This document shows positions 4,584 through 14,244 of a stretch of DNA of 64,000 nt, piece by piece. Source of the stretch: Verrucomicrobiia bacterium. Its GTDB lineage: Bacteria > Verrucomicrobiota > Verrucomicrobiia > Verrucomicrobiales > Akkermansiaceae. How positions within the stretch are numbered: position 1 is the first letter of the stretch; each line of letters begins with the position of its first letter. The notes under the pieces are model-generated. The model saw nothing but the letters and a program-made list of their open reading frames with translations, was not told the origin of the DNA and made no database searches. A program made the position numbers and the translations under genes. The stretch covers positions 62,001-126,000 of the forward strand of contig JAUIJD010000005.1 of the NCBI GenBank assembly GCA_030431475.1, given 5' to 3'.

Positions 4584-4613
4584 AGCGGCCTTGAGGGGTC
4601 GGCCCCCGAACGA

Positions 4614-4641
4614 GAAACGGCACCCCGGAGGGTGCCGTTTC
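4614..4641. terminator. bidirectional hairpin between convergent genes
   Basis: A perfect 12-bp stem (GAAACGGCACCC / GGGTGCCGTTTC, arms 4614-4625 and 4630-4641) with a 4-nt loop lies between the porin stop and the flotillin stop. A symmetric A/T-flanked stem fits termination from both sides. Confidence 0.8.
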
Positions 4642-4647
4642 GTGGGC

Positions 4648-6195
4648 TCAGATGGAGGGCGTGTCGTCGCCGGGCGGCGGCTCCTCCGGCGCCGCCTGGA
4701 AGGGGGGCGGCGTCGGCTCGGCCGGCTTCGGCGTCGGGGCGGATGGGCTCGCGTCGCCGCCCTTGCCGAGCTTGCCGAGGTACTCGGGGAGCTCGATGCC
4801 GGCGTTGCGGCTGATCTCGTGGAGCGGCGGCAGCGAGCCGACCAGTCCGGAGACGAAGTTGGCGGTGCTGCCCTTGCCGTCGCCGCCCTGTCCGTTGTCC
4901 CAGACGGTGACCTTGTCGATCTTGAGGTTGGAGATGGCCTTGGCCTGCTCCTCGACGAGCTTCGGCAACTGCTCGATCATCAGCAACAGCGAGGCGAGGT
5001 CCTTGTCGCCATTGGCGGCGCCGACGAGGTCGGAGAAACCGCGGGCCTTCTTGGTCAGGATCTGCTCGGTACCTTCGGCCTCGGCCTCAAGGCGGAAGCG
5101 CAGGCCATCGGCCTCGGCCTGCTTGACGGCCTTGAGACCGTCGGCCTCGGCCTGCTTCTGCAGGCGGACCGCGTCGGCCTCACCGGCCTGGGTGCGGCGA
5201 ACCGACTCGGCGCGGGCTTCGGCATCGACGATGGCCTTCTGCTTGGCGACCTCGGCGGGGACGATGATGTTGGCTTCCTGGGAGGCCTTCTCCCGATTGG
5301 CCCGCTCGAGCTCGGACTGGGCCTCGGCCTTGTAGGCTTCCTGGAGGGCGGCCGCCGCCTTGACCTTTTCGGCGGCGGAGGCGGCGCGTTCGGCCTCGGC
5401 CTCCTTGACCCGGCGTTCGGCGTTCGAGTTGGCGATTTCGACGGTGGCGAGGTTTTCCCCGTCGGTGGCCTTGGCGTTGGCGTTGGAGACGCGGATCCGC
5501 TGGTCGCGCTGGGCCTCGGCGGCGCCGATGTCGCCATCCCGCTGCGCTTCGGCGACCTTCACCTTGGCCTCGGCGATGGCCTTCGAAGCGGCCTCCTGTC
5601 CGAGGGCGTCGATGTAGCCGGATTCGTCGGTGATGTCCTGGATGTTGACGTTGATCAGGCGCAGGCCGACCTTCTTCAGCTCGACCTCGACGCCGGTGGA
5701 GATGTTGGCGATGAGCTTGTCGCGGTCGGCGTTGATCTCCTCGATGTCCATCGTGGCGATGACCACGCGCATCTGGCCGAAGATGATGTCCTTTGCCAGC
5801 TCCTTGATCTCGGCGAGTCCGAGGCCGAGCATCCGTTCGGCGGCGTTCTCCATGATGCCGGGTTCGGTCGAGACGCCGACGGTGAAGGTGGACGGGGTGT
5901 TGACCCGGATGTTCTGCTTCGACAGCGCGCCCTCGAGCCGGATGTCGATGGGCAGGGGGGTCAGGTCGAGGAACTGGTAGCCCTGGATGATGGGCCACAC
6001 GAAGGCGGCCCCGCCGTGGTAGCAGTTGGCCGACTTGCCGCCGGAGACCTTGCCGTAGACGACGAGGAGCTTGTCGGACGGACAGCGCTTGTAGCGGGTG
6101 ATGAAGGCGACCACCACCGCCGCGAAAAAGATCACGACGGCAATGACGACGATGGGGAAGGGCAGCGGAAGATCCGCCAGGAGCGTGGTATTCAT
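4648..6195 (-). CDS. flotillin-like SPFH-domain protein
   Basis: The 515-residue product has an N-terminal membrane segment (about residues 14-33) and an SPFH/band-7 domain from about 40 to 210. A long Ala/Glu/Lys-rich coiled coil follows from about 210 to 400, with near-repeat units such as QAEADGLKAVKQAEADGLRF, then a Gly/Pro-rich tail. This is the arrangement of bacterial flotillins (FloT/YqiK type), which scaffold membrane microdomains and affect fluidity and stress responses. It is 21 bp downstream of an NfeD-like gene on the same strand, the standard bacterial pairing. Confidence 0.9.
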   Translation of the reverse strand: MNTTLLADLPLPFPIVVIAVVIFFAAVVVAFITRYKRCPSDKLLVVYGKVSGGKSANCYHGGAAFVWPIIQGYQFLDLTPLPIDIRLEGALSKQNIRVNTPSTFTVGVSTEPGIMENAAERMLGLGLAEIKELAKDIIFGQMRVVIATMDIEEINADRDKLIANISTGVEVELKKVGLRLINVNIQDITDESGYIDALGQEAASKAIAEAKVKVAEAQRDGDIGAAEAQRDQRIRVSNANAKATDGENLATVEIANSNAERRVKEAEAERAASAAEKVKAAAALQEAYKAEAQSELERANREKASQEANIIVPAEVAKQKAIVDAEARAESVRRTQAGEADAVRLQKQAEADGLKAVKQAEADGLRFRLEAEAEGTEQILTKKARGFSDLVGAANGDKDLASLLLMIEQLPKLVEEQAKAISNLKIDKVTVWDNGQGGDGKGSTANFVSGLVGSLPPLHEISRNAGIELPEYLGKLGKGGDASPSAPTPKPAEPTPPPFQAAPEEPPPGDDTPSI

Positions 6196-6216
6196 CTTTG
6201 GGGTTGTGGGTGGGGA

Positions 6217-6792
6217 TTAGAGATCTTCGACGTAGAAGGAGGTGGGGCCGTCCAGGCTCGTGATGCGCACCTTTTCGCCGGGGGCGATCGCTCCGGCCCC
6301 GCGCTTGCGGGCGCTGGCGGTGACGAGCCGGCCCTGGATGGTGACCTGAATCTGGCCGCCGCCGTCGTGATTGTCGCCCTGGATGGTGACGTAGACGGTG
6401 GCCTCCGACCCGATCGCGGATCCGTACTCGAGGTTGCCGCTCGACTGCAGGCGCAGGAGCGCCCGGAGCATGAAGAACATCGCGAACATCAGCGCGAGTC
6501 CCGAGCCGGTGCCGATCAGGGTGGCGGCGACCACGTTGAGACCCCCTTCGAGGCCCAGCACGCCGCCCCAGCCGAAGCCGAGGAAGAAGGCGCTGATCGT
6601 GTGCGAGGAGAAGAGCCCGAGCCCCGAGGCGTCGGGCGCGCCGACGTCGATGTGGAAGAAGTCGAAGAATCCGTCGATGCCCATCCCCAGCAGCGCGAGG
6701 AGCGTCTGCAGAATCGTCAGGCCGAGGGCGACGACCCCGATGCCGTAGAACACCTGGAGCGGGGTTTCGAGGTTGGTCCACCAATCGATCAT
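6217..6792 (-). CDS. NfeD-like membrane protein
   Basis: A 191-residue protein with several predicted membrane helices in the first two thirds (VFYGIGVVALGLTILQTLL, GSGLALMFAMFFMLRALLRL). The C-terminal third looks like an OB-fold (VTIQGRLVTASARKRGAGAI, then GEKVRITSLDGP). Short NfeD proteins of this kind accompany flotillins, and this gene is the upstream partner of the flotillin gene. It is the first gene of the two-gene unit; 226 bp without a recognised gene separate it from the divergent hydrolase gene. Confidence 0.78.
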   Translation of the reverse strand: MIDWWTNLETPLQVFYGIGVVALGLTILQTLLALLGMGIDGFFDFFHIDVGAPDASGLGLFSSHTISAFFLGFGWGGVLGLEGGLNVVAATLIGTGSGLALMFAMFFMLRALLRLQSSGNLEYGSAIGSEATVYVTIQGDNHDGGGQIQVTIQGRLVTASARKRGAGAIAPGEKVRITSLDGPTSFYVEDL

Positions 6793-7018
6793 GGGTCTGC
6801 TGGGTTCGGGTTCCGGAGCGGTGATTCACCCGCCCTTCTCTAACATCGACAATGTGCGTCGGTGGCGAGGGAGGAGGCAAGTTGAATGCGTTCGCGGGGA
6901 ACGGTCGCAGTCTAGGAGGAAGGGCGCGGGCTTGTCCGTTCCAAAGATGGGGCGTGGATTGTAGGGGCCGGCCGCCAAAGAGTTTGCATCCCGCGAGCGG
7001 TGGACGAAGGGTTACGCC

Positions 7019-8440
7019 GTGAACGGGTGCCTCCGAATGATGCGATGCCTGATGGCGGTTCTGGCGCTGACCGGGATGTCCACGGCGGGGGAGAAGAACG
7101 CGCCGGTCACCGTCGATGTCACCGACCGCCTTCAGGCCGTTTCGGGCTTCGGGGCTTCCGGGGCCTGGTGGCATACCTGGTTTCACCAGATGAAGCCCGG
7201 GGAGCAGGAGCGGGCGCTGGACCTCCTGTTCACGGAGCGGGGAGCGGCGCTCACGATCTTCCGCTACAACCTTCCCTCGGCATCCGGCGAAGACGTGACC
7301 CGCAGTGACCGTCGGACCGCGGATGTCGAAACCGGGCCGTTCCGCTACGATCTCGAGCGTGACGGCCGGAACCTGGAGATTCTCGAGCGGGTGATCGACC
7401 GAGGCGTGGACGACGTGGTGTTCTTCAGCAACAGCCCTCCGCGGCGGCTGACCCGCACCGGGATGACGAGCGGCGGCGAGCGCGGGGGCGTGAACCTGGC
7501 GTCCGGGGCGGAGGCGGATCTGGCCCGTTATCTGGTCGACGTCACCGACCGGCTGATGAAGCGGACCGGGTTGGAGCGGGCCCGGCTGTCGCCGGTGAAC
7601 GAGCCGCAGTGGCGCTGGGGCGAGGAACGGCGGCACCAGGACGGTTGCCACTACCGACCGGAAGGCGTGGCCGCGGTGGGCCGTGCGGTTCTCGACGAGC
7701 TGGAGAAGCGCGGGGATGGACTGGCCGGCGAGATCGAGATCGAGCTTTTCGACTCCGGCTCATGGGAGGCGACTCCCAGGTATGCGGAGGTGGTGTGGGC
7801 GGATGAGGGGCTGGCCGCGGCGGTCGTTTCGATCGCGATCCATTCGTACTGGAGCGACGCGCGGAAGAAGCGGGAGGCGCGGGCCTGGCTCGACCGCCAC
7901 CTGCCCGGGGTGCCGGTGCGCATGACCGAGTACTGCGAGATGCGTGGCGGGCACGATCCGGGGATGCGGTCGGCCCTCGATCTGGCCCGCACGATTCACG
8001 AGGACTTCACCATCGGACGGGTGATCGAGTGGACCTGGTGGCTCGGGCTGAGCCGTGGCCGCTACTGCGACGGGCTGCTCCACTACCTGCCGGAGCGGCG
8101 CGGGGGCGAGCGGGTGCTGGAAACGACCAAGCGGCTGTGGGTGCTGGCGAACTGGAGTCGCTTCGTGCGGCCGGGATGGACGAGGGTCTCGTGTGAGGCG
8201 GGGGACGGTTCGCCGCTTCAGCCGACCGCCTTCCTTTCTCCCGACGGGACGAGGCTCGTCTGCGTGCTGGTCAACCCGCAACCGGAGGAGGTGGCGTTCT
8301 CCAGCAGGATCGTGGGGGGGACTTTCTCGACCACGGCGGCATGGCGGACGAGCGAGGGGCACGACCTCGCCCGGGTGCCGGTCACGGCGGTCCTGCCGGG
8401 GCGGTCGGTGACCACCTTCGAGCTGGAGCGTGCCGAGTAG
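7019..8440 (+). CDS. secreted GH30-like glycoside hydrolase
   Basis: The 473-residue product has an N-terminal signal peptide (MMRCLMAVLALTGMSTAG) and a (beta/alpha)8 domain. The acid/base motif SPVNEPQW places Glu195, and the nucleophile motif RMTEYCEMRG places Glu304, the clan GH-A arrangement used by GH30 enzymes. A short beta-rich C-terminal region ending around FELERAE fits the GH30 side domain. The annotated start is GTG 7019; ATG 7037 is an equally good alternative. It is probably periplasmic or extracellular and cleaves a beta-linked glycan, but substrate specificity cannot be read from sequence. It stands alone, divergent from NfeD and convergent on the AMP-ligase gene. Confidence 0.75.
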   Translation: MNGCLRMMRCLMAVLALTGMSTAGEKNAPVTVDVTDRLQAVSGFGASGAWWHTWFHQMKPGEQERALDLLFTERGAALTIFRYNLPSASGEDVTRSDRRTADVETGPFRYDLERDGRNLEILERVIDRGVDDVVFFSNSPPRRLTRTGMTSGGERGGVNLASGAEADLARYLVDVTDRLMKRTGLERARLSPVNEPQWRWGEERRHQDGCHYRPEGVAAVGRAVLDELEKRGDGLAGEIEIELFDSGSWEATPRYAEVVWADEGLAAAVVSIAIHSYWSDARKKREARAWLDRHLPGVPVRMTEYCEMRGGHDPGMRSALDLARTIHEDFTIGRVIEWTWWLGLSRGRYCDGLLHYLPERRGGERVLETTKRLWVLANWSRFVRPGWTRVSCEAGDGSPLQPTAFLSPDGTRLVCVLVNPQPEEVAFSSRIVGGTFSTTAAWRTSEGHDLARVPVTAVLPGRSVTTFELERAE

Positions 8441-8457
8441 GCGCCGGGGGACGTTCC

Positions 8458-9912
8458 TCAGTGGCGCCGGACCTTTCCGGAGGCGGTGAGCGGGATCTCG
8501 TCGACCACCCCGTAGCGGAGCGGCACCTTGTAGGCGGAGATGTGCTCGCGGCAGTAGCGCTGGAGGGCGGCGGGCTTCGGCGGCGCTTCCGGGTCGGCGG
8601 GGATGATTTCGGCGACGGGGATCTGCCCCATCTGGGGGTGATCGCGGCCGAGAACCCGGCTGGCCTTCACGGCCGGGTGCAGGTTGAGGACGGCCTCGAC
8701 CTCCTCGGGGAAGACCTTCATGCCGGCGACGTTGATGACGGATTTGAGGCGTCCGACCAGGGTCAGGTGCCCGTCGGCGTCGCGCATCACGAGGTCGCCG
8801 CTGGCGAAGAACCCATTCTGCAGGGGGTTCGGATTCCATGGCACCAGGTAGGCGTCGAGCAGGCCGGGGCCGCGGACATGGAACTCGCCGGGAGTGCCGT
8901 CGGCGACGGTCCGGCCGTCCGGGTCCCTCAGTTCGACGGTGTACGCGGGCAAGGGTTTTCCGAGCGATCCGGGTTTCTTGAGGGCGGCGTCGAGGTTGAG
9001 CACGGAGAGCCCGACCTCGATGATCCCGAGGCCCTGGACGAGGGGGGTGCCGAAGCGTTGATGGAATGCACGGCCGGTGGCTTCGGGGAGCTTGGCCGCG
9101 GTGGCGACGGCGAGGCGCAGGCTGGGCCAGTCGAAGTCGCCGCGGTCGGCGGCGAGCTGGGCGAAATGGAAGGGCGAGCCGTAAATCACGGTGGCCTCGT
9201 GCCTTTCGGCGCAGGCGAGGACGTCCTCGCGGGTGGGCGACGACTCGAGCAGGGTGAGCGCGCCGGCGTGGAGGTAGAGGACGATGGAGACGGCGAAGTG
9301 GTGGGCCATCGGCAGCATCCACAGGATGCGGTCCTCGGGGCCGATGCGCATGCCCTCGTTGGCCGCGGTGATGCGGGCGAGCAGGCTTTCGTGGGAGAGC
9401 ACGACGCCCTTGCTGGTGCCGGTGGTGCCGGAGGAGAAGCGGATGAAGGCGGGGTTGAGGGCCTGGAATTCGTCCTCGGGGAAGGCCGGCTCGAAGTGCC
9501 CCTCCTTCGCCGAGGCTACGGCGGGCAGGCAAGTGAGAAGTTCCAAGTGCCAAGGGGGAGTGCCGCCTGCGGCGGGGGTCGGGGGGGAGCTGCCGCCGTG
9601 TTGGAGGATGAGGTCGAGGGCGGTGGTGCGGGTGATCTCGTCGCGTTCCTCCGCGGTGAGCTCCTCGGCGAGCGGGACCAGGCAGGCGTCGGCGAGCAGG
9701 ATGCCCATCGCGAGCATGATGTAGTCGAGGCCGTTCGGGCAGTGGAGTCCGACGCGGGGCCGGCGTCCGAGGGGCGCGGCGGCGTCGCGGATGGCGTCGG
9801 CCACGGGTTTCGCCCCGGCAAACAGCTCGCCGTAGGTGACGAGGCGCCGTCCGTCGTGAACGGCGGGCGCGTCGTCGGGATGGAGGCGGGCGATTTCCTC
9901 GATCAGGTTCAT
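8458..9912 (-). CDS. AMP-dependent acyl/aryl ligase (adenylation enzyme)
   Basis: The 484-residue product has the complete ANL-superfamily core: A3 phosphate loop FSSGTTGTSKGVVLSH (about residues 158-173), an A5-like GIIEVG, A7 SGDLVMRDADGHLTLVGR and the C-terminal catalytic lysine in ASGKVRRH. It should activate a carboxylic acid as acyl-AMP and load it onto CoA or a carrier protein. It is the last gene of a patatin-ACP-condensation-ligase operon, which favours loading the neighbouring carrier protein. Residues about 105-137, just before A3, are a low-complexity insertion encoded by a short repeated DNA element. The ATG at 9912 begins MNLIEEIARLHPDDAP; the upstream open frame is antisense to other sequence. 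Confidence 0.88.
   Translation of the reverse strand: MNLIEEIARLHPDDAPAVHDGRRLVTYGELFAGAKPVADAIRDAAAPLGRRPRVGLHCPNGLDYIMLAMGILLADACLVPLAEELTAEERDEITRTTALDLILQHGGSSPPTPAAGGTPPWHLELLTCLPAVASAKEGHFEPAFPEDEFQALNPAFIRFSSGTTGTSKGVVLSHESLLARITAANEGMRIGPEDRILWMLPMAHHFAVSIVLYLHAGALTLLESSPTREDVLACAERHEATVIYGSPFHFAQLAADRGDFDWPSLRLAVATAAKLPEATGRAFHQRFGTPLVQGLGIIEVGLSVLNLDAALKKPGSLGKPLPAYTVELRDPDGRTVADGTPGEFHVRGPGLLDAYLVPWNPNPLQNGFFASGDLVMRDADGHLTLVGRLKSVINVAGMKVFPEEVEAVLNLHPAVKASRVLGRDHPQMGQIPVAEIIPADPEAPPKPAALQRYCREHISAYKVPLRYGVVDEIPLTASGKVRRH
9505..9554. repeat. repeat element inserted in frame in AMP-ligase gene
   Basis: The segment CTTCGCCGAGGCTACGGCGG followed by GAAGTTCCAAGTGCCAAG has the look of intergenic repeats seen elsewhere in the window (compare GAAGTGCCGGGTGCCAAG at 40575 and CTTCCAAGTTCAAAGTTCC at 22273). 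Here it is translated as part of the ligase (WHLELLTCLPAVASAKEG) without breaking the frame. Confidence 0.55.
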
Positions 9913-9952
9913 GGGGCGGGGATTCGTGGGCGGGAATGGGGGTCGGAGCTTG

Positions 9953-11227
9953 TCAGTGGGGGCCGAGGAGGTCGGCGCGGAGGGTGTCGGTGAGGAGGGC
10001 GAGTTCTTCGGGAGAGAGGGTGCCCTCGCGCCACGAGAGGGTGCAAGTGAGGCGGTCGGACCTTTCGCTGAAGAAGATGCCGAGTCCGGGCGGGTCCGAG
10101 ACGGTCGGGACATGGAAGCCGTCGAGGACCTCGTGGCCGAACAGGGTGTCGGTGCCGTCGGCGAAGCGTCCGGTGTGGGAGTGGAACAACGTGCAGATCT
10201 CGCCCTTCAGGTAGAAGCCGGCGGGTTTCAGGTAGAAGCGCGACGGGCAGCGCTCCATCAGCTTCATCAGCGCCTCCATGGCGCCCGGCAATTTGCGGCG
10301 GAGGAAGGCGGCATACTTGCGGTGGAGCGTGTGGGTGGTCTCCCCGAGGGTGCCGAAGTCGCCGGGCTCGAGCATCAGCGACCAGGCCACCATGTGGTTC
10401 TGGAAAAGTGGGCGCTTGCGCGGGTTGGCGACGCGCTGGACGGGCAGCGACAGCAGGGCGGGGATGTCCGCGTCCGGATGGCGACCGGCCAACACGGCGC
10501 GGGTGGCGCGGGCGGCGACGGTGGCGAAGTATGGAAGCATGAGCAGCTCCCCGGCATGGGATGCCATCCGCTCGCGGATGGTGGCCGTCTGCTGCGGGGT
10601 GAAGCGCAGCAGCTGGAAGCGGGGGGAACCGGCCCGGTGGCGAGGCCGGCGGAGCGAGCGGATGCGCCAGGTGGGGAAGGAACGCATCTCCTCGACCATC
10701 GGCTTGGCGGTGCGCCAGAGCGCGGAGGCGGGGCCGCCGGCCTTGCTCGTCTCGCCCCAGTCCTCGCGCCGGGATTCGTCGGGGTCGTCGAGTTCGGCCA
10801 GCAGCTTGTCGATGCCGATCGCGTCGAAAAGCGCGTGGGGCCATAGCAGGACCAGTGTCCAGCGGTCGTCGCCGGTGGGAAGCGCGTGGAGTTCGAGGTT
10901 GGGACCGGGACGCCGGATGTCGATCCGCGGATGTTCGAGAAGCCGGGCCAGCAGCGCGTCGAGGGGTCCCCGGGGGTGGATCTCGACGGGGAGCGGTGAC
11001 GCCTCGCCGGGGTGCCATCCGGCGAGGAAGTCCGCGCCGCGGGCGATGCGGGCGTTGAGCAGGGGGTGGCGGGCCGCCAGCCGGGCGGCGGCGGTGTGGA
11101 GCCGGTCGGCATCCGGTTGGCCGGACAGATCGACCACCGTGGCGGCGAGGTGGGCCTGCTGGCCGGCACGGCGCATGTGCGACTCGAGCGCGAGCAGGAA
11201 GGCGTCGCTGGTGGTGGCGGGGATCAA
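9953..11227 (-). CDS. condensation-fold acyltransferase-like protein
   Basis: The 424-residue product looks like a stand-alone member of the condensation/CoA-dependent acyltransferase fold. The N-terminal LHTAAARLAARHPLLNARI matches the opening helix of condensation domains, and HALFDAIG (His131 to Gly138) aligns with the HHxxxDG catalytic motif, with Pro instead of the first His. Family members join or transfer acyl groups bound to carrier proteins. It lies 19 bp after the ACP gene and 40 bp before the AMP-ligase gene, so the ACP is the likely donor. Whether the acceptor is an amine, an alcohol or a glycan is unknown. I do not recognise a named subfamily. Confidence 0.72.
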   Translation of the reverse strand: MIPATTSDAFLLALESHMRRAGQQAHLAATVVDLSGQPDADRLHTAAARLAARHPLLNARIARGADFLAGWHPGEASPLPVEIHPRGPLDALLARLLEHPRIDIRRPGPNLELHALPTGDDRWTLVLLWPHALFDAIGIDKLLAELDDPDESRREDWGETSKAGGPASALWRTAKPMVEEMRSFPTWRIRSLRRPRHRAGSPRFQLLRFTPQQTATIRERMASHAGELLMLPYFATVAARATRAVLAGRHPDADIPALLSLPVQRVANPRKRPLFQNHMVAWSLMLEPGDFGTLGETTHTLHRKYAAFLRRKLPGAMEALMKLMERCPSRFYLKPAGFYLKGEICTLFHSHTGRFADGTDTLFGHEVLDGFHVPTVSDPPGLGIFFSERSDRLTCTLSWREGTLSPEELALLTDTLRADLLGPH

Positions 11228-11246
11228 GGGGTCGGGGCGCTGGGGG

Positions 11247-11480
11247 CTAGGGAGCTTGCTTGGAACGGACGAGGGCGGCGATCATCGACGCCGTCCGGAA
11301 GTTTTCCCGCGAGAGGTCGGCGGGGTCGATGGCGACGCTGAATGCATCTTCCAGGGCGAGCTGGAGCTGCATGATGGCCATCGAGTCGAGGCCGATGTCG
11401 AACAGATCCGTGTCGGCGGTGATCGGGCCGTCGGGGTCGAGGATGTCGTCGCGGAGGATGCGGAGGATGTCGTCTTCCAT
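11247..11480 (-). CDS. acyl carrier protein
   Basis: A 77-residue four-helix carrier protein. The phosphopantetheine attachment site is visible as DIGLDSMAIMQL, with Ser33 in the DSM motif. It is acidic, as is usual for the family. The ATG at 11480 gives a normal ACP length; the longer open frame upstream is the antisense of the patatin gene. It sits 5 bp after the patatin stop and 19 bp before the condensation-like gene, so it is translationally linked to both. It is a dedicated carrier rather than the fatty-acid-synthesis ACP, judging by context. Confidence 0.9.
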   Translation of the reverse strand: MEDDILRILRDDILDPDGPITADTDLFDIGLDSMAIMQLQLALEDAFSVAIDPADLSRENFRTASMIAALVRSKQAP

Positions 11481-11485
11481 GGCGG

Positions 11486-12316
11486 TCAGAGTTGGGTGGC
11501 GGCGTGGCGGCCGGAGTCGAGGCCCCGGTCGTAGCAGAGCGGGGCCAGGCGGCTGGTCAGCACGCTGGGGTAGGGGGTGACGGTTTCCTTCTCGATGAGC
11601 CGTTTTCCGTGCTGGCGGCAGAGCTCGACGCGAAGGCGGTGGATTTCGTTGCAGGCGGTGTGGTGGGCGACGCCGATCACGGTGGCGACCGTCTCCCACT
11701 TGACCGCCGGGCCGGTGCCTTTCTCGTGGCGGATCCGGTGGATGAGGATGGTGTCGATGCCGGGGTCGTCGATCAGGTGCTCGAAGGGCAGCTCGGCCGC
11801 GATGCCACCGTCGAGGTAGCGCTGGTCGCCGACATCCTGGATCGTGAATAGCCCGGGGACGGCGCAGGAGGCCATGACCAGCTCGGCGAGCGGGCCCGAG
11901 TGGAGGATTTCACAGCGCGAGGTGAGGACGTTGGTGACGGCGATCTCCAGATCGAGGTCGGCGAGGTCGAGATCGCCGAGCAGGCGGCGCAGGTGGGCCA
12001 CGGTGCGCTTGCCGTTGAACACGCCCGACGACCAGAACGAGGTGAGCACGCCGGGCAGCCGCCACAGGGCCCCGGGGTCGGCGAAGGACAGCCGGAGGTG
12101 GTGGCAGATCGCTTCACGGCGGAGGTCGTCGCCCCGCAGGCCCGAGGCGTAGAGGGCGCCGGCGAGCGCGCCGGCCGAGGCCCCCGAGATGCGGGCCGGG
12201 CTCAGGCCGGCCTCGACCAGGCCGTTGAGGAAGCCGGCGTGTGCGTACACGCCGAGGAAGGACGAGCCGAGCACGACGGCGGTCCTCGAGGGGCGGGCAT
12301 GGACGGCTTCGGACAT
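11486..12316 (-). CDS. patatin-like phospholipase / acyl hydrolase
   Basis: The 276-residue patatin-fold protein has the nucleophile elbow GASAG (Ser47), an upstream glycine-containing oxyanion segment (LGSSFLGVYAHAG), and the catalytic Asp in YLDGG (Asp169), so the Ser-Asp dyad is intact. No signal peptide is visible, so it is probably cytoplasmic or membrane-associated. Patatins release fatty acids from lipids. In this operon it could supply or release the acyl chain handled by the ligase, ACP and condensation-like protein. It is the first gene of the operon, starting just after a short tandem repeat. Confidence 0.87.
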   Translation of the reverse strand: MSEAVHARPSRTAVVLGSSFLGVYAHAGFLNGLVEAGLSPARISGASAGALAGALYASGLRGDDLRREAICHHLRLSFADPGALWRLPGVLTSFWSSGVFNGKRTVAHLRRLLGDLDLADLDLEIAVTNVLTSRCEILHSGPLAELVMASCAVPGLFTIQDVGDQRYLDGGIAAELPFEHLIDDPGIDTILIHRIRHEKGTGPAVKWETVATVIGVAHHTACNEIHRLRVELCRQHGKRLIEKETVTPYPSVLTSRLAPLCYDRGLDSGRHAATQL

Positions 12317-12330
12317 GGATGGCGCCCGCG

Positions 12331-12360
12331 GAGTTTCAAGTTTCTGCTTTCAGTTTCAAG
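12331..12360. repeat. short imperfect tandem repeat (TTTCAAG units)
   Basis: The run GAGTTTCAAGTTTCTGCTTT followed by CAGTTTCAAG contains repeated GTTTCAAG/GTTTC words. It lies in the 67-bp gap between the divergent patatin and IscA-type genes and resembles other AAGTTCCAAG-type tracts in the window. Confidence 0.45.
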
Positions 12361-12383
12361 AGTTGCGGCAAGATTCGGGGCGA

Positions 12384-12749
12384 ATGACCGAGACAGCGGT
12401 GAACTACAAGGTCGGCAGCGAGAAGCTCATCAAGGTGATGGACGGTGCCTCGGCGCACCTGTGCGGCCTGCTCGAGAAGCAGGGCCGGCCGGAAGGAGCG
12501 TTGCGGATCGCGGTGATCGGGGGCGGCTGCAGCGGCCTGCAGTACAAGATGGACCTCGTCGACGGCCCGCGCGACCGCGACATCCTCGTCGAGAGCAACG
12601 CGGTTAAGGTGGTGATCGACCCGAAGAGCGCCCTCTTCGTGAGCGGCAGCGAGCTGGACTACTCGGACGACCTGCAGCAGGGCGGCTTCAAGGTGAGCAA
12701 CCCGAATGCCGTGGTGACCTGTTCGTGCGGCGAGAGTTTCGCCGCCTGA
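12384..12749 (+). CDS. iron-sulfur cluster assembly A-type carrier (IscA/ErpA/SufA family)
   Basis: The 121-residue product has the HesB/IscA fold with the three conserved cysteines: one in GGGCSGLQYKM and two in the C-terminal TCSCGESF. The NPNAVVTCSCGESF end is diagnostic. It accepts and delivers Fe-S clusters to apo-proteins in the cytoplasm. An HscB-like J-protein and Hsp70 lie about 2.7 kb further on the same strand, a functional echo, although PEP-CTERM genes on the other strand intervene. The ATG at 12384 begins MTETAVNYKVG. Confidence 0.92.
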   Translation: MTETAVNYKVGSEKLIKVMDGASAHLCGLLEKQGRPEGALRIAVIGGGCSGLQYKMDLVDGPRDRDILVESNAVKVVIDPKSALFVSGSELDYSDDLQQGGFKVSNPNAVVTCSCGESFAA

Positions 12750-13595
12750 TCAGGGGGTGACCTCGAGGCGCAGGAAGCGCCGCGGGTCGGTGCCGACCGG
12801 GTCGGGGTCGACGATCCGGAGCAACTGCGTCGTCCCGTTGTCCTGGATGATCCCGGGGCTGGCGGGCAGGCTCTGCCACGAACCCTCGAGCAGGGTGGTG
12901 GATTTCTGGAGTGTCACGCTGACCGCCGCGAGCGTGTCGACGTGGGCGTTGAAGGTGAAGGCGAGATGACGGGTGACCGGCGCCCCCCCGCCGGGATCGA
13001 TGTCGACGACCGAGCCGGTGGTGTCGGCAGCAAGGCTGACAGAAACGGCCTGGTCGGCGGGGCGCACCGGATCGGGGCCGGCGAAGAGGAATTGATAGGA
13101 GGTGGTGGCAGCGCCGTCGGGAGGAAGCGTCAAGCCGGCCTGGGTCAGGATGCCGTAGGCGGTCCCGGGTGGGACCGGATCATCGACCGAAACGGCCGCT
13201 TCGAACCAGACGATGGCGAACGCGTCTCCCGCGGAGACCCGGGGGTCCGAGTAGATCTCCAGCTCGTTCACGGTTCCAGGGCTTCCGGGCCCGGGGTCCG
13301 CTCCGATCTGGATGTTCACGGTCGAACCGCAGACGAAGAAGACATCGTCGTCGGACCAATCGAAACTCGTCGCTGGGGGAATGGCGGTGTCGAGCCGCTG
13401 ATCGCGGGGGGCGAAGCCGTCGCCGGCGGTGTCCACCAGGATGCCCCACGTGAGCCCGTTGATGCCGACGGTTCCTCCCGGATTCGACAGGCCCGTGAGG
13501 GCGGAGCTGGTGCCGGCGAACCGGAGTGAGACCGCGGCCCAGGCGGCGTGTGCCGAGATCAGGCAGACCGCCCAGCCTGTGATCACGCTGCGCAT
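12750..13595 (-). CDS. secreted protein sharing a passenger domain with the next gene
   Basis: The 281-residue product has a signal peptide (VITGWAVCLISAHAAWA). Its first about 170 residues (SSALTGLSNPGG, NGLTWGILVDTAGDGF, AFAIVWFEAAV) are clearly related to the neighbouring PEP-CTERM protein at 13618-14244. Instead of a PEP-CTERM anchor it ends in a C-terminal domain with TLQKSTTLLEGSWQSLP and RRFLRLEVTP, a type I have seen on secreted Verrucomicrobiota proteins. No enzymatic motif is visible. It is 22 bp downstream of its paralogue and ends immediately after the convergent IscA-type gene. Confidence 0.6.
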   Translation of the reverse strand: MRSVITGWAVCLISAHAAWAAVSLRFAGTSSALTGLSNPGGTVGINGLTWGILVDTAGDGFAPRDQRLDTAIPPATSFDWSDDDVFFVCGSTVNIQIGADPGPGSPGTVNELEIYSDPRVSAGDAFAIVWFEAAVSVDDPVPPGTAYGILTQAGLTLPPDGAATTSYQFLFAGPDPVRPADQAVSVSLAADTTGSVVDIDPGGGAPVTRHLAFTFNAHVDTLAAVSVTLQKSTTLLEGSWQSLPASPGIIQDNGTTQLLRIVDPDPVGTDPRRFLRLEVTP

Positions 13596-13617
13596 GGGAC
13601 GATTGCCGTCGAGGGCT

Positions 13618-14244
13618 TCAGCCGATGGCCCGCTTTCGCCGGAGAGCCACGAGTCCGCCGAGAAGCATCAGCGAGAGGGTGGAAGTTTCGGGGACGAACG
13701 CAAGGTTGGCGGGCCTCACGGGATCGGCGCCGGCGGAGAGAGCGGCGAGGTCGGTGGTTGCCTCGCCGTCTGGTGGGAGCAGGAAGCCGGCATTTTCGTA
13801 GAGCCCGTAGAAGTCCCCGGGGCTGACCTCGGACCCGCTGGACAGCGACGACTCGAACCAGATGACCGCGAAGGGGTCATCGGCATTGACGCCGGTCACG
13901 CCGGGCGTGTTGTAGAAGTCGGCCTCGTTGAGGAGGATGGCCGCGCCCGGACCTCCCTGGCTTCCCGGAACCGTCGTCGTCGTGCCCCCGTTGAAAAAGT
14001 AGTCGTTGATGCCGAGGTCGGCCCCGTCATCGAGGGATAGCCCAAGAAACGCTTCGAAGCTGCCGAAGCCGTCCCGGTCGGCATCGATCACGATTCCCCA
14101 GGTCAGCCCGTCGGTCCCTTCGGTCGCATCTTTGTCGGCGAGTCCGGTGAGGGCATTCGAGGTGTTCGAGAAGCGGATGCTGTTGACGGGAAAGGCGGGA
14201 AGGGTGAGGGCCGCGCCGAGGAGCGCGAGGAACGGGATTCTCAT
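13618..14244 (-). CDS. PEP-CTERM-type surface protein
   Basis: The 208-residue product has an N-terminal signal peptide (FLALLGAALTLPAFP) and a C-terminal sorting tail: VPETSTLSLMLLGGLVALRR, then a short basic end. PEP-CTERM tails are recognised by exosortases in EPS-producing bacteria. Here the classical PEP is PET, an acceptable variant. The body shares NTSNALTGLADKDATEGTDG and DPFAVIWFES with the downstream neighbour. It is probably exported and processed at the cell surface; function unknown. The position is the middle of a three-gene minus-strand group of exported proteins. Confidence 0.75.
   Translation of the reverse strand: MRIPFLALLGAALTLPAFPVNSIRFSNTSNALTGLADKDATEGTDGLTWGIVIDADRDGFGSFEAFLGLSLDDGADLGINDYFFNGGTTTTVPGSQGGPGAAILLNEADFYNTPGVTGVNADDPFAVIWFESSLSSGSEVSPGDFYGLYENAGFLLPPDGEATTDLAALSAGADPVRPANLAFVPETSTLSLMLLGGLVALRRKRAIG

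Follow-up and report, generated by a model that had tools for sequence, protein, structure and literature searches.

Gene content of the locus

The locus described here lies in a 64,000-nucleotide stretch of a Verrucomicrobiia bacterium of the family Akkermansiaceae (contig JAUIJD010000005.1, positions 62,001 to 126,000; hereafter the window, in which all coordinates are counted). Four minus-strand genes encode a patatin-like lipase (PAT), a small acyl carrier protein (ACP), a stand-alone condensation-fold enzyme (CON) and an AMP-forming acid ligase (LIG). PAT (11486-12316, 276 amino acids (aa), ATG start) matches the Pfam family Patatin (E-value 7.8e-25) and possesses the motifs GASAG (Ser47) and DGG (Asp169). 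ACP (11247-11480, 77 aa, ATG start) has a PP-binding domain (1.5e-12) with a GLDS phosphopantetheine site (Ser33). CON (9953-11227, 424 aa, TTG start) was assigned from profile, model and fold matches, and alignment placed its HxxxD motif (His131 to Asp135) at 10823-10837 on the same strand. LIG (8458-9912, 484 aa, ATG start) matches AMP-binding (1.2e-60) and AMP-binding_C (1.4e-14) and carries a C-terminal SGK (Lys480). For ACP and LIG, the lists of open reading frames (ORFs) gave longer frames; the ATG starts used here were taken from the sequence and agree with relatives.

An initial annotation of this DNA had described a tightly packed, operon-like run of a patatin, an ACP, a condensation-fold enzyme and an AMP-ligase. 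The coordinates confirm the run, with intergenic gaps of 5, 19 and 40 bp, and the identities of patatin, ACP and ligase are borne out by Pfam matches and conserved family residues. The four-gene set is confirmed as real and conserved beyond chance, because the genus keeps the order ACP-CON-LIG (50-84% identity), the third codon position is the most changed in all four genes in comparison with two relatives, CON starts with TTG in three species alike, and the reading frames of CON and LIG share 4 bp in 12 of 14 genomes in which this was measured (a 40-bp gap is found in the window's genome; genome G013, in which a contig break splits the run, is omitted from this count). A scan of the minus strand from 8200 to 12700 returned no sigma-70-like and no terminator-like site, which lends at most weak support to a single transcript.

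Conservation and loss within the genus

CON was identified in 15 of the 18 genomes of the genus, and an ACP orthologue in the same 15. Both ACP and LIG lie beside CON in all 15 of these, the run being split over two contigs in G013. Across the family CON matches occur in 18 of 145 genomes, the only full-length copies outside the genus being those of two genomes of genus g13; the match in G501 is weak and lies in a very long frame. A contig scan of the genome with CON alone gave four loci, all of them close. The co-conservation of all four genes, proposed as a check in the initial annotation, held in part: all four stand together in only 6 of the 15 CON-bearing genomes, and ACP-CON-LIG (the triad) in 15 of 15. 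These comparisons show the triad, not all four genes, to be the conserved core; the four genes as one conserved unit were rejected, since the patatin adjoins the others in 6 of 15.

Three genomes of the genus (G001, G004 and G006) lack CON and also the ACP orthologue; the best carrier found there is another family member at no more than 42% identity, or none. At the G001 locus LIG directly follows an Fe-S gene, with patatin, ACP and CON gone, and in G006 LIG remains beside an Amj gene, with ACP and CON gone. An orthologue of LIG (66-83% identity) is found in 17 of 18 genomes and is missing only in G004. Two independent sets of 15 out of 18 would coincide once in 816; neighbouring genes can vanish in one deletion, so that the figure corresponds to two or three events. 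ACP and CON thus behave as one unit, and LIG has a use without them, since the losses are shared in G001, G004 and G006 while LIG stays in G001 and G006.

In another family (f4), ACP and CON form a single ORF of 565-571 aa in all four genomes that possess CON (loci L040-L043), and a PP-binding domain was found in the fusion ORFs of L040 and L042. These four genomes encode a 48-51% identical LIG on another contig. In genome G037 (L041) the fusion is accompanied by a short-chain dehydrogenase/reductase (SDR), a FAD-dependent oxidoreductase and a second ACP; in the window's genome, contig C39 carries a matching pair, to which this SDR and ACP are 66% and 60% identical, respectively. A 48% identical LIG is also found in G054, in which no CON match was obtained.

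Fold and active site of CON

No match to CON was found in Pfam (at 0.01) or in NCBIfam. A profile of 18 CON sequences matched AzeD (PDB accession no. 8s6l, 3.4e-5), with condensation and cyclization domains of nonribosomal peptide synthetases (NRPS) and PapA5 as weaker hits. The AlphaFold model of CON (pLDDT 80.5) also found 8s6l by Foldseek (3.7e-20), and by VIA-align it aligned to AzeD over 399 residues (Z 32.0, rmsd 3.5); the next-best structures were condensation domains (Z up to 27.6), PapA5 (25.1) and wax-ester synthase (23.8), and starter-condensation domains matched as well. Profile, Foldseek and VIA-align agree with the initial annotation of this protein, and the modelled structure confirms a two-lobed fold of condensation type (CAT/NRPS C/PapA5 superfamily) over the full length, a fold that does not by itself fix the reaction.

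The HxxxD active site, for which the initial annotation had advised a check, is present: His131 and Asp135 are invariant in 18 of 18 aligned sequences, and HxxxD[GA] occurs in all 15 CON genes of the distant loci described below. The motif of canonical NRPS C domains is HHxxxDG. In CON the residue before the motif His is Ser (13) or Pro (5) among the 18 aligned sequences and Asp (8), Ser (5), His (1) or Arg (1) among the 15 distant genes. A canonical NRPS C domain was ruled out, the first His being mostly replaced and CON being a separate gene or fused to one ACP.

An activity other than acyl transfer, such as that of a dehydratase, cyclase or hydrolase acting on an ACP-bound chain, would accord with the absence of this first His from all 18 aligned sequences and from all but one of the 15 distant ones, and with the entry title of the closest structure in the PDB ('AzeD dehydratase'; Z 32.0 vs 27.6 for the next); the ACP-CON fusion is compatible with any carrier-bound chemistry. 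However, the molecule name of the same AzeD chain is phthiocerol/phthiodiolone dimycocerosyl transferase, condensation, starter-condensation, PapA5 and wax-ester-synthase structures match too, and differences in Z assign no reaction. An activity of this kind is considered improbable.

Putative pathway genes elsewhere in the genome

Homologues of further biosynthetic genes were identified on three other contigs of the window's genome. Contig C6 encodes a ketosynthase (KS), a KS-like protein, a second AMP-binding protein, a FabZ-like dehydratase and a FabG-like SDR; contig C39 an SDR, an ACP and the beginning of an LPG_synthase_TM protein, cut off by the contig end; and contig C88 an ACP and a FAD oxidoreductase. 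The C6 KS scored 329.5 bits with the FabF model, 271.9 with PRK09185 and 238.6 with PRK09116, all under cut-off. The KS, the KS-like protein, the C39 ACP and SDR and the FAD oxidoreductase match genes of the distant clusters (blastp, mostly 25-46% identity).

Orthologues of the C6 KS (72-87% identity) and of the C39 ACP (78-92%) are each present in 17 of 18 genomes of the genus, missing only in G004, and the FAD oxidoreductase (62-83%) is present in 16, being absent from G004 and from G011 (72% complete). The shared absence of KS, C39 ACP and LIG from G004 is suggestive only. Four genomes (G003, G008, G010 and G013) have the FAD oxidoreductase, with its ACP, and the KS as neighbours on a single contig, all inside some 5 kb.

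Two side observations concern these proteins. Beside the KS, the second AMP-binding protein was called at 412 aa in the window's genome (C6, L117:9999-11237) and at 823 aa in G002 (L136:7333-9804), where the ligase part occupies the C-terminal half. A FAD-dependent, halogenase-like oxidoreductase (c2) lies downstream of LIG in seven genomes of the genus (L030, L031, L033-L035, L037 and L038), sometimes several genes away, and a 30% identical protein is found beside ACP-CON in G037 (L041).

Clusters in distant Verrucomicrobiota

A search of the phylum gave CON-like matches in 43 of 387 genomes; ten of these had already been studied, and 18 places were taken from the other 33. Neighbourhoods were counted at 15 of the 18 loci, L076, L081 and L087 being dropped as their CON was uncalled by the simple gene caller used. 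The caller also missed the patatin of G007, the full ACP-CON frame of L043 and the genes of L041, all of which were found by another reading.

At these 15 loci an ACP is no more than two genes from CON in 12, a LIG within six genes in 12 and a ketosynthase within eight genes in 11; a C39-type ACP was present in seven and a C88-type FAD oxidoreductase in three. Protein families were counted for 88 of the 131 neighbours of the distant clusters: ketoacyl-synthase (21), PP-binding (17), AMP-binding (9), radical SAM (5), LpxL-like acyltransferase (5), B12-binding (4), GT2 (3), DUF2062 (3) and ApeP-like (2). Thirteen distant neighbours match ketosynthase models, the best among the models listed being PRK09116 (6.2e-202), followed by PRK09185 (8.9e-149), both of which we take to be models of the aryl-polyene (APE) type of ketosynthase. 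At L086 a same-strand run consists of a C39-type ACP, a KS, a KS-like protein, an ACP, CON, a FAD oxidoreductase, a radical SAM-SPASM protein and an MMPL exporter; no LIG was called in this run. Among distant Verrucomicrobiota, CON is usually accompanied by ACP, LIG and ketosynthases, in clusters that resemble those for aryl polyenes or those of the 'ladderane' kind. The description of the four genes as a minimal pathway without ketosynthase was therefore not upheld, a KS being within eight genes of CON in 11 of 15 distant loci and the window's genome itself encoding KS, KS-like, FabZ-like, SDR, ACP and FAD oxidoreductase homologues on other contigs.

Carrier protein and ligase

Gly30, Leu31, Asp32 and Ser33 of ACP are invariant in 19 of 19 aligned sequences, so that a PP-binding domain is found together with its DS serine; the DltC models of NCBIfam match it below cut-off. 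ANL adenylating enzymes possess a conserved C-terminal Lys. LIG combines an AMP-binding domain with a C-terminal domain in which Lys480 is invariant in 15 of 15 aligned sequences. Its structure prediction (pLDDT 51.7) was excluded from the fold search, and clues to its substrate come from the NCBIfam matches given below and from the best 60 of 135 matching PDB sequences. Among the latter, the best hit is a two-module peptide synthetase (2.3e-49), and the top single-domain hits are benzoate-CoA, o-succinylbenzoate-CoA and feruloyl-CoA ligases (3.5e-47 to 6.9e-45); FadD13 (2.9e-38) and a chain that bears the name fatty-acyl-CoA synthase (7.3e-45) match as well. The hallmarks of fatty acyl-AMP ligases (FAAL) are a FAAL-specific insertion and the lack of a CoA product; no chain named FAAL occurs among the same 60.

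The position of aryl-acid ligases at the head of the single-domain hits would suit a LIG that acts as a CoA or starter-acid ligase for chain elongation, with ACP-CON as a separate tailoring pair and an adjacency that is regulatory only. The same can be said of the retention of LIG and KS in G001 and G006 without ACP and CON, of the separate contigs that carry LIG and ACP-CON in the four f4 genomes, and of G054 with its LIG and no CON match. Against such a division, LIG stands beside ACP-CON in all 15 CON-bearing genomes of the genus, the 4-bp overlap recurs in 12 of 14, and 12 of the 15 distant loci have a LIG no more than six genes from CON, so that this alternative, too, is given a low probability.

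The patatin and the Fe-S locus

Patatin-like lipases are characterized by GxSxG and a DG[GA] dyad. Both are present in PAT, in which Ser47, Asp169, Gly170 and Gly171 are invariant in 5 of 5 aligned sequences, and PlpD is the sole PDB sequence to match it at an E-value of 0.001 (2.4e-14). The patatin adjoins the triad in G000, G017, G002, G016, G014 and G005, the linked patatin of G005 being only a fragment at a contig end. All of these but G005 make up a single clade of the tree, and G005 falls in the other (some supports are low). A 61-66% identical orthologue is found at another place in nine further genomes of the genus.

An Fe-S biosynthesis gene (FeS, 12384-12749, plus strand; Fe-S_biosyn 9.9e-17 in a longer frame) is divergent from PAT. 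The same gene lies beside the patatin in five linked loci including that of the window and beside the unlinked patatin in eight of the nine stretches read; in G009 it was uncalled. Because the Fe-S gene adjoins the patatin in linked and unlinked loci alike, the patatin belongs to an Fe-S locus throughout the genus, which the triad joins in part of the tree; FeS itself is a partner of the patatin locus across the genus and stands outside the acyl module.

In 13 of 17 genomes the C39-type ACP has a second patatin, 37-49% identical to PAT, at a distance of 1.0-1.3 kb; in all six such stretches read this patatin lies behind an LPG_synthase_TM gene. The stretches read in G014 and G016 contain LPG_synthase_TM and the C39-type ACP and no patatin; in the window's genome contig C39 ends before the place in question. 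The dismissal of the patatin as a mere bystander was not accepted, given this second patatin and the deletion scar in G001, where FeS stands next to LIG; the two observations leave a role of the patatin in the pathway unproven.

These data also bear on whether the four genes could form a self-contained pathway, in which the patatin would free a fatty acid from membrane lipid, LIG and ACP would re-activate it and CON would place it on a new acceptor. The arrangement in one run with short gaps is what such a pathway would predict; the gene set and the G001 scar point to an old linkage in one clade, and the second patatin near the C39-type ACP fits as well. Set against this, only 6 of 15 CON genomes have the patatin next to the triad, none of the 15 distant loci has one within eight genes of CON, G006 retains the patatin at the Fe-S locus though without ACP and CON, and elsewhere the module sits in ketosynthase clusters. 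A self-contained pathway is the least probable of the explanations considered, and quite unlikely.

Other genes near the module were also compared. A GH30-type glycosidase gene (7019-8440, plus strand) sits just past LIG; 25-28% identical GH30 proteins are encoded near the triad in G009, G007 and G012 (L029, L032 and L036), directly upstream of ACP and on the same strand in G007 and G012. On the minus strand, 12750-14244 encodes two adjacent proteins of 281 and 208 aa with no Pfam match and about 43% mutual identity, and three copies of similar stretches occur in the G001 locus L130. A 750-aa protein (4591-6843, plus strand) has no Pfam match at 0.01 and is 67% identical to a protein near the triad in G017.

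Proposed role of the module

The explanation towards which we lean, on a slight balance of probability, is that PAT-ACP-CON-LIG activates acids and transfers acyl groups as one branch of a larger pathway of type II fatty-acid/polyketide-like character, which is scattered over the genome and has relatives in the aryl-polyene clusters and the so-called ladderane-type clusters of Verrucomicrobiota. It draws on the gene set and its motifs, the fold of CON, conservation, the ACP-CON fusion, joint absence, and co-clustering with ketosynthases in relatives; the loading of ACP, acyl transfer by CON, the acceptor and any part played by the patatin are what we infer in addition. LIG would adenylate a free carboxylic acid and load it onto a phosphopantetheine arm, which could be that of the adjacent ACP or that of a different ACP in the pathway. 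With His131 of HxxxD, CON, as a PapA5-like enzyme, would take an acyl group off the adjacent ACP and attach it to a lipid, sugar or amino acid through a hydroxyl or amine, a step that may tailor or off-load the product. For the patatin an accessory part is proposed: as a hydrolase or transacylase it may edit, release or recycle the acyl product. The membrane-related neighbours (LPG_synthase_TM and patatins) hint at a membrane lipid as product.

Several observations weigh against this explanation. The four loci (the module on C107, and those on C6, C39 and C88) are unlinked in the window's genome, and membership of the pathway therefore rests on relatives. The distant CON matches are partly weak, down to an E-value of 4.6e-4; none of the 15 loci has a patatin in reach, and the nearest outgroup locus (L075) possesses the triad with no KS within eight genes. 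For LIG, the NCBIfam matches (25 of 105 listed) are all below cut-offs, with a subfamily of long-chain fatty-acid ligases at the top. The co-absences in G004 come from a single genome of 3.3 Mb, smaller than any other in the genus, and may reflect one general reduction. Finally, G001 and G006 keep LIG, KS, C39 ACP and FAD oxidoreductase though without ACP and CON; the rest of the pathway can thus do without ACP-CON, and the ACP beside LIG is not necessarily the one it serves. It is because of this dispensability that ACP-CON looks like a tailoring branch of the pathway.

A more specific form of the proposed pathway branch is possible, yet rather doubtful: CON with its own ACP would be the off-loading or anchoring enzyme of orphan 'ladderane'/aryl-polyene-like pathways, joining the finished acid from its ACP to a membrane lipid or glycan as an ester or amide, with the patatins as editing or recycling lipases, and an ancestral cluster would have been broken in this genus into at least four loci that are largely co-inherited. 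If the proposed branch is real, it supplies a candidate for the transfer step in chemically orphan clusters of Verrucomicrobiota, a dispersed pathway of this kind can escape cluster-based genome mining, and three testable proteins (ACP, CON and LIG) are at hand for reading substrate and acceptor.

Comparison with known systems

Like PapA5 and AzeD, CON has the full-length fold (Z 25.1 and 32.0, respectively) and HxxxD; unlike them, to which it is 14-15% identical, it has no Pfam match and is next or fused to its own small ACP. A ligase with a dedicated small carrier is also seen in DltA-DltC. Dlt systems employ a DltB-type membrane acyltransferase, whereas none was seen in this operon, where a condensation-fold enzyme is in its place.

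Aryl-polyene biosynthesis (ApeH, ApeE/ApeF) likewise places an AMP-forming ligase and small ACPs beside ketosynthases, and the distant CON clusters share with it an LpxL-like acyltransferase, GT2-DUF2062, MMPL and a weak ApeP-like match. In contrast, the genes here are on separate contigs (C6, C39, C88 and C107), and a contiguous cluster of KS-CLF (ketosynthase and chain-length factor), tandem ACPs, dehydratase, ketoreductase, ligase and exporter was not found; the E. coli gene table, for its part, contains no condensation-fold enzyme, FAD oxidoreductase, radical SAM protein or patatin (PMC8253772). The same source describes ApeH as charging ACP with 4-hydroxybenzoate without a CoA step, which is a precedent for the direct, CoA-free loading of ACP proposed for LIG, and proposes ApeD/ApeJ for the anchoring of the acid onto a membrane lipid or glycan in E. 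coli. The N-terminal domain of ApeH is described as AasS-like (PMC8358021).

Clusters labelled 'ladderane' have also been described in Verrucomicrobia, with their product unknown (PMC7298704, PMC9902471). In the available parts of these accounts their function is given as unknown (PMC7298704) and no link to the lipid is made (PMC9902471). Identity of these clusters with those of CON is not implied, and the label implies no ladderane product here. A search of a 2009 ladderane comparison (PMC2649909) for the terms 'Verrucomicro' and 'patatin' returned neither. The patatin/ACP/condensation/ligase set was likewise absent from the titles and abstract openings of the literature searched, a coverage mostly outside subscription papers.

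In the flexirubin cluster of Chitinophaga pinensis, a polyene acid also needs esterifying, and a ligase-like protein, FlxW, has been proposed for the ester step; this cluster belongs to another phylum, and no condensation-fold enzyme is named in the available part of its description (PMC3992019). The individual parts of the system described here are all of known kinds: what is new is their combination, the fusion of ACP with CON and the scattering of the genes.

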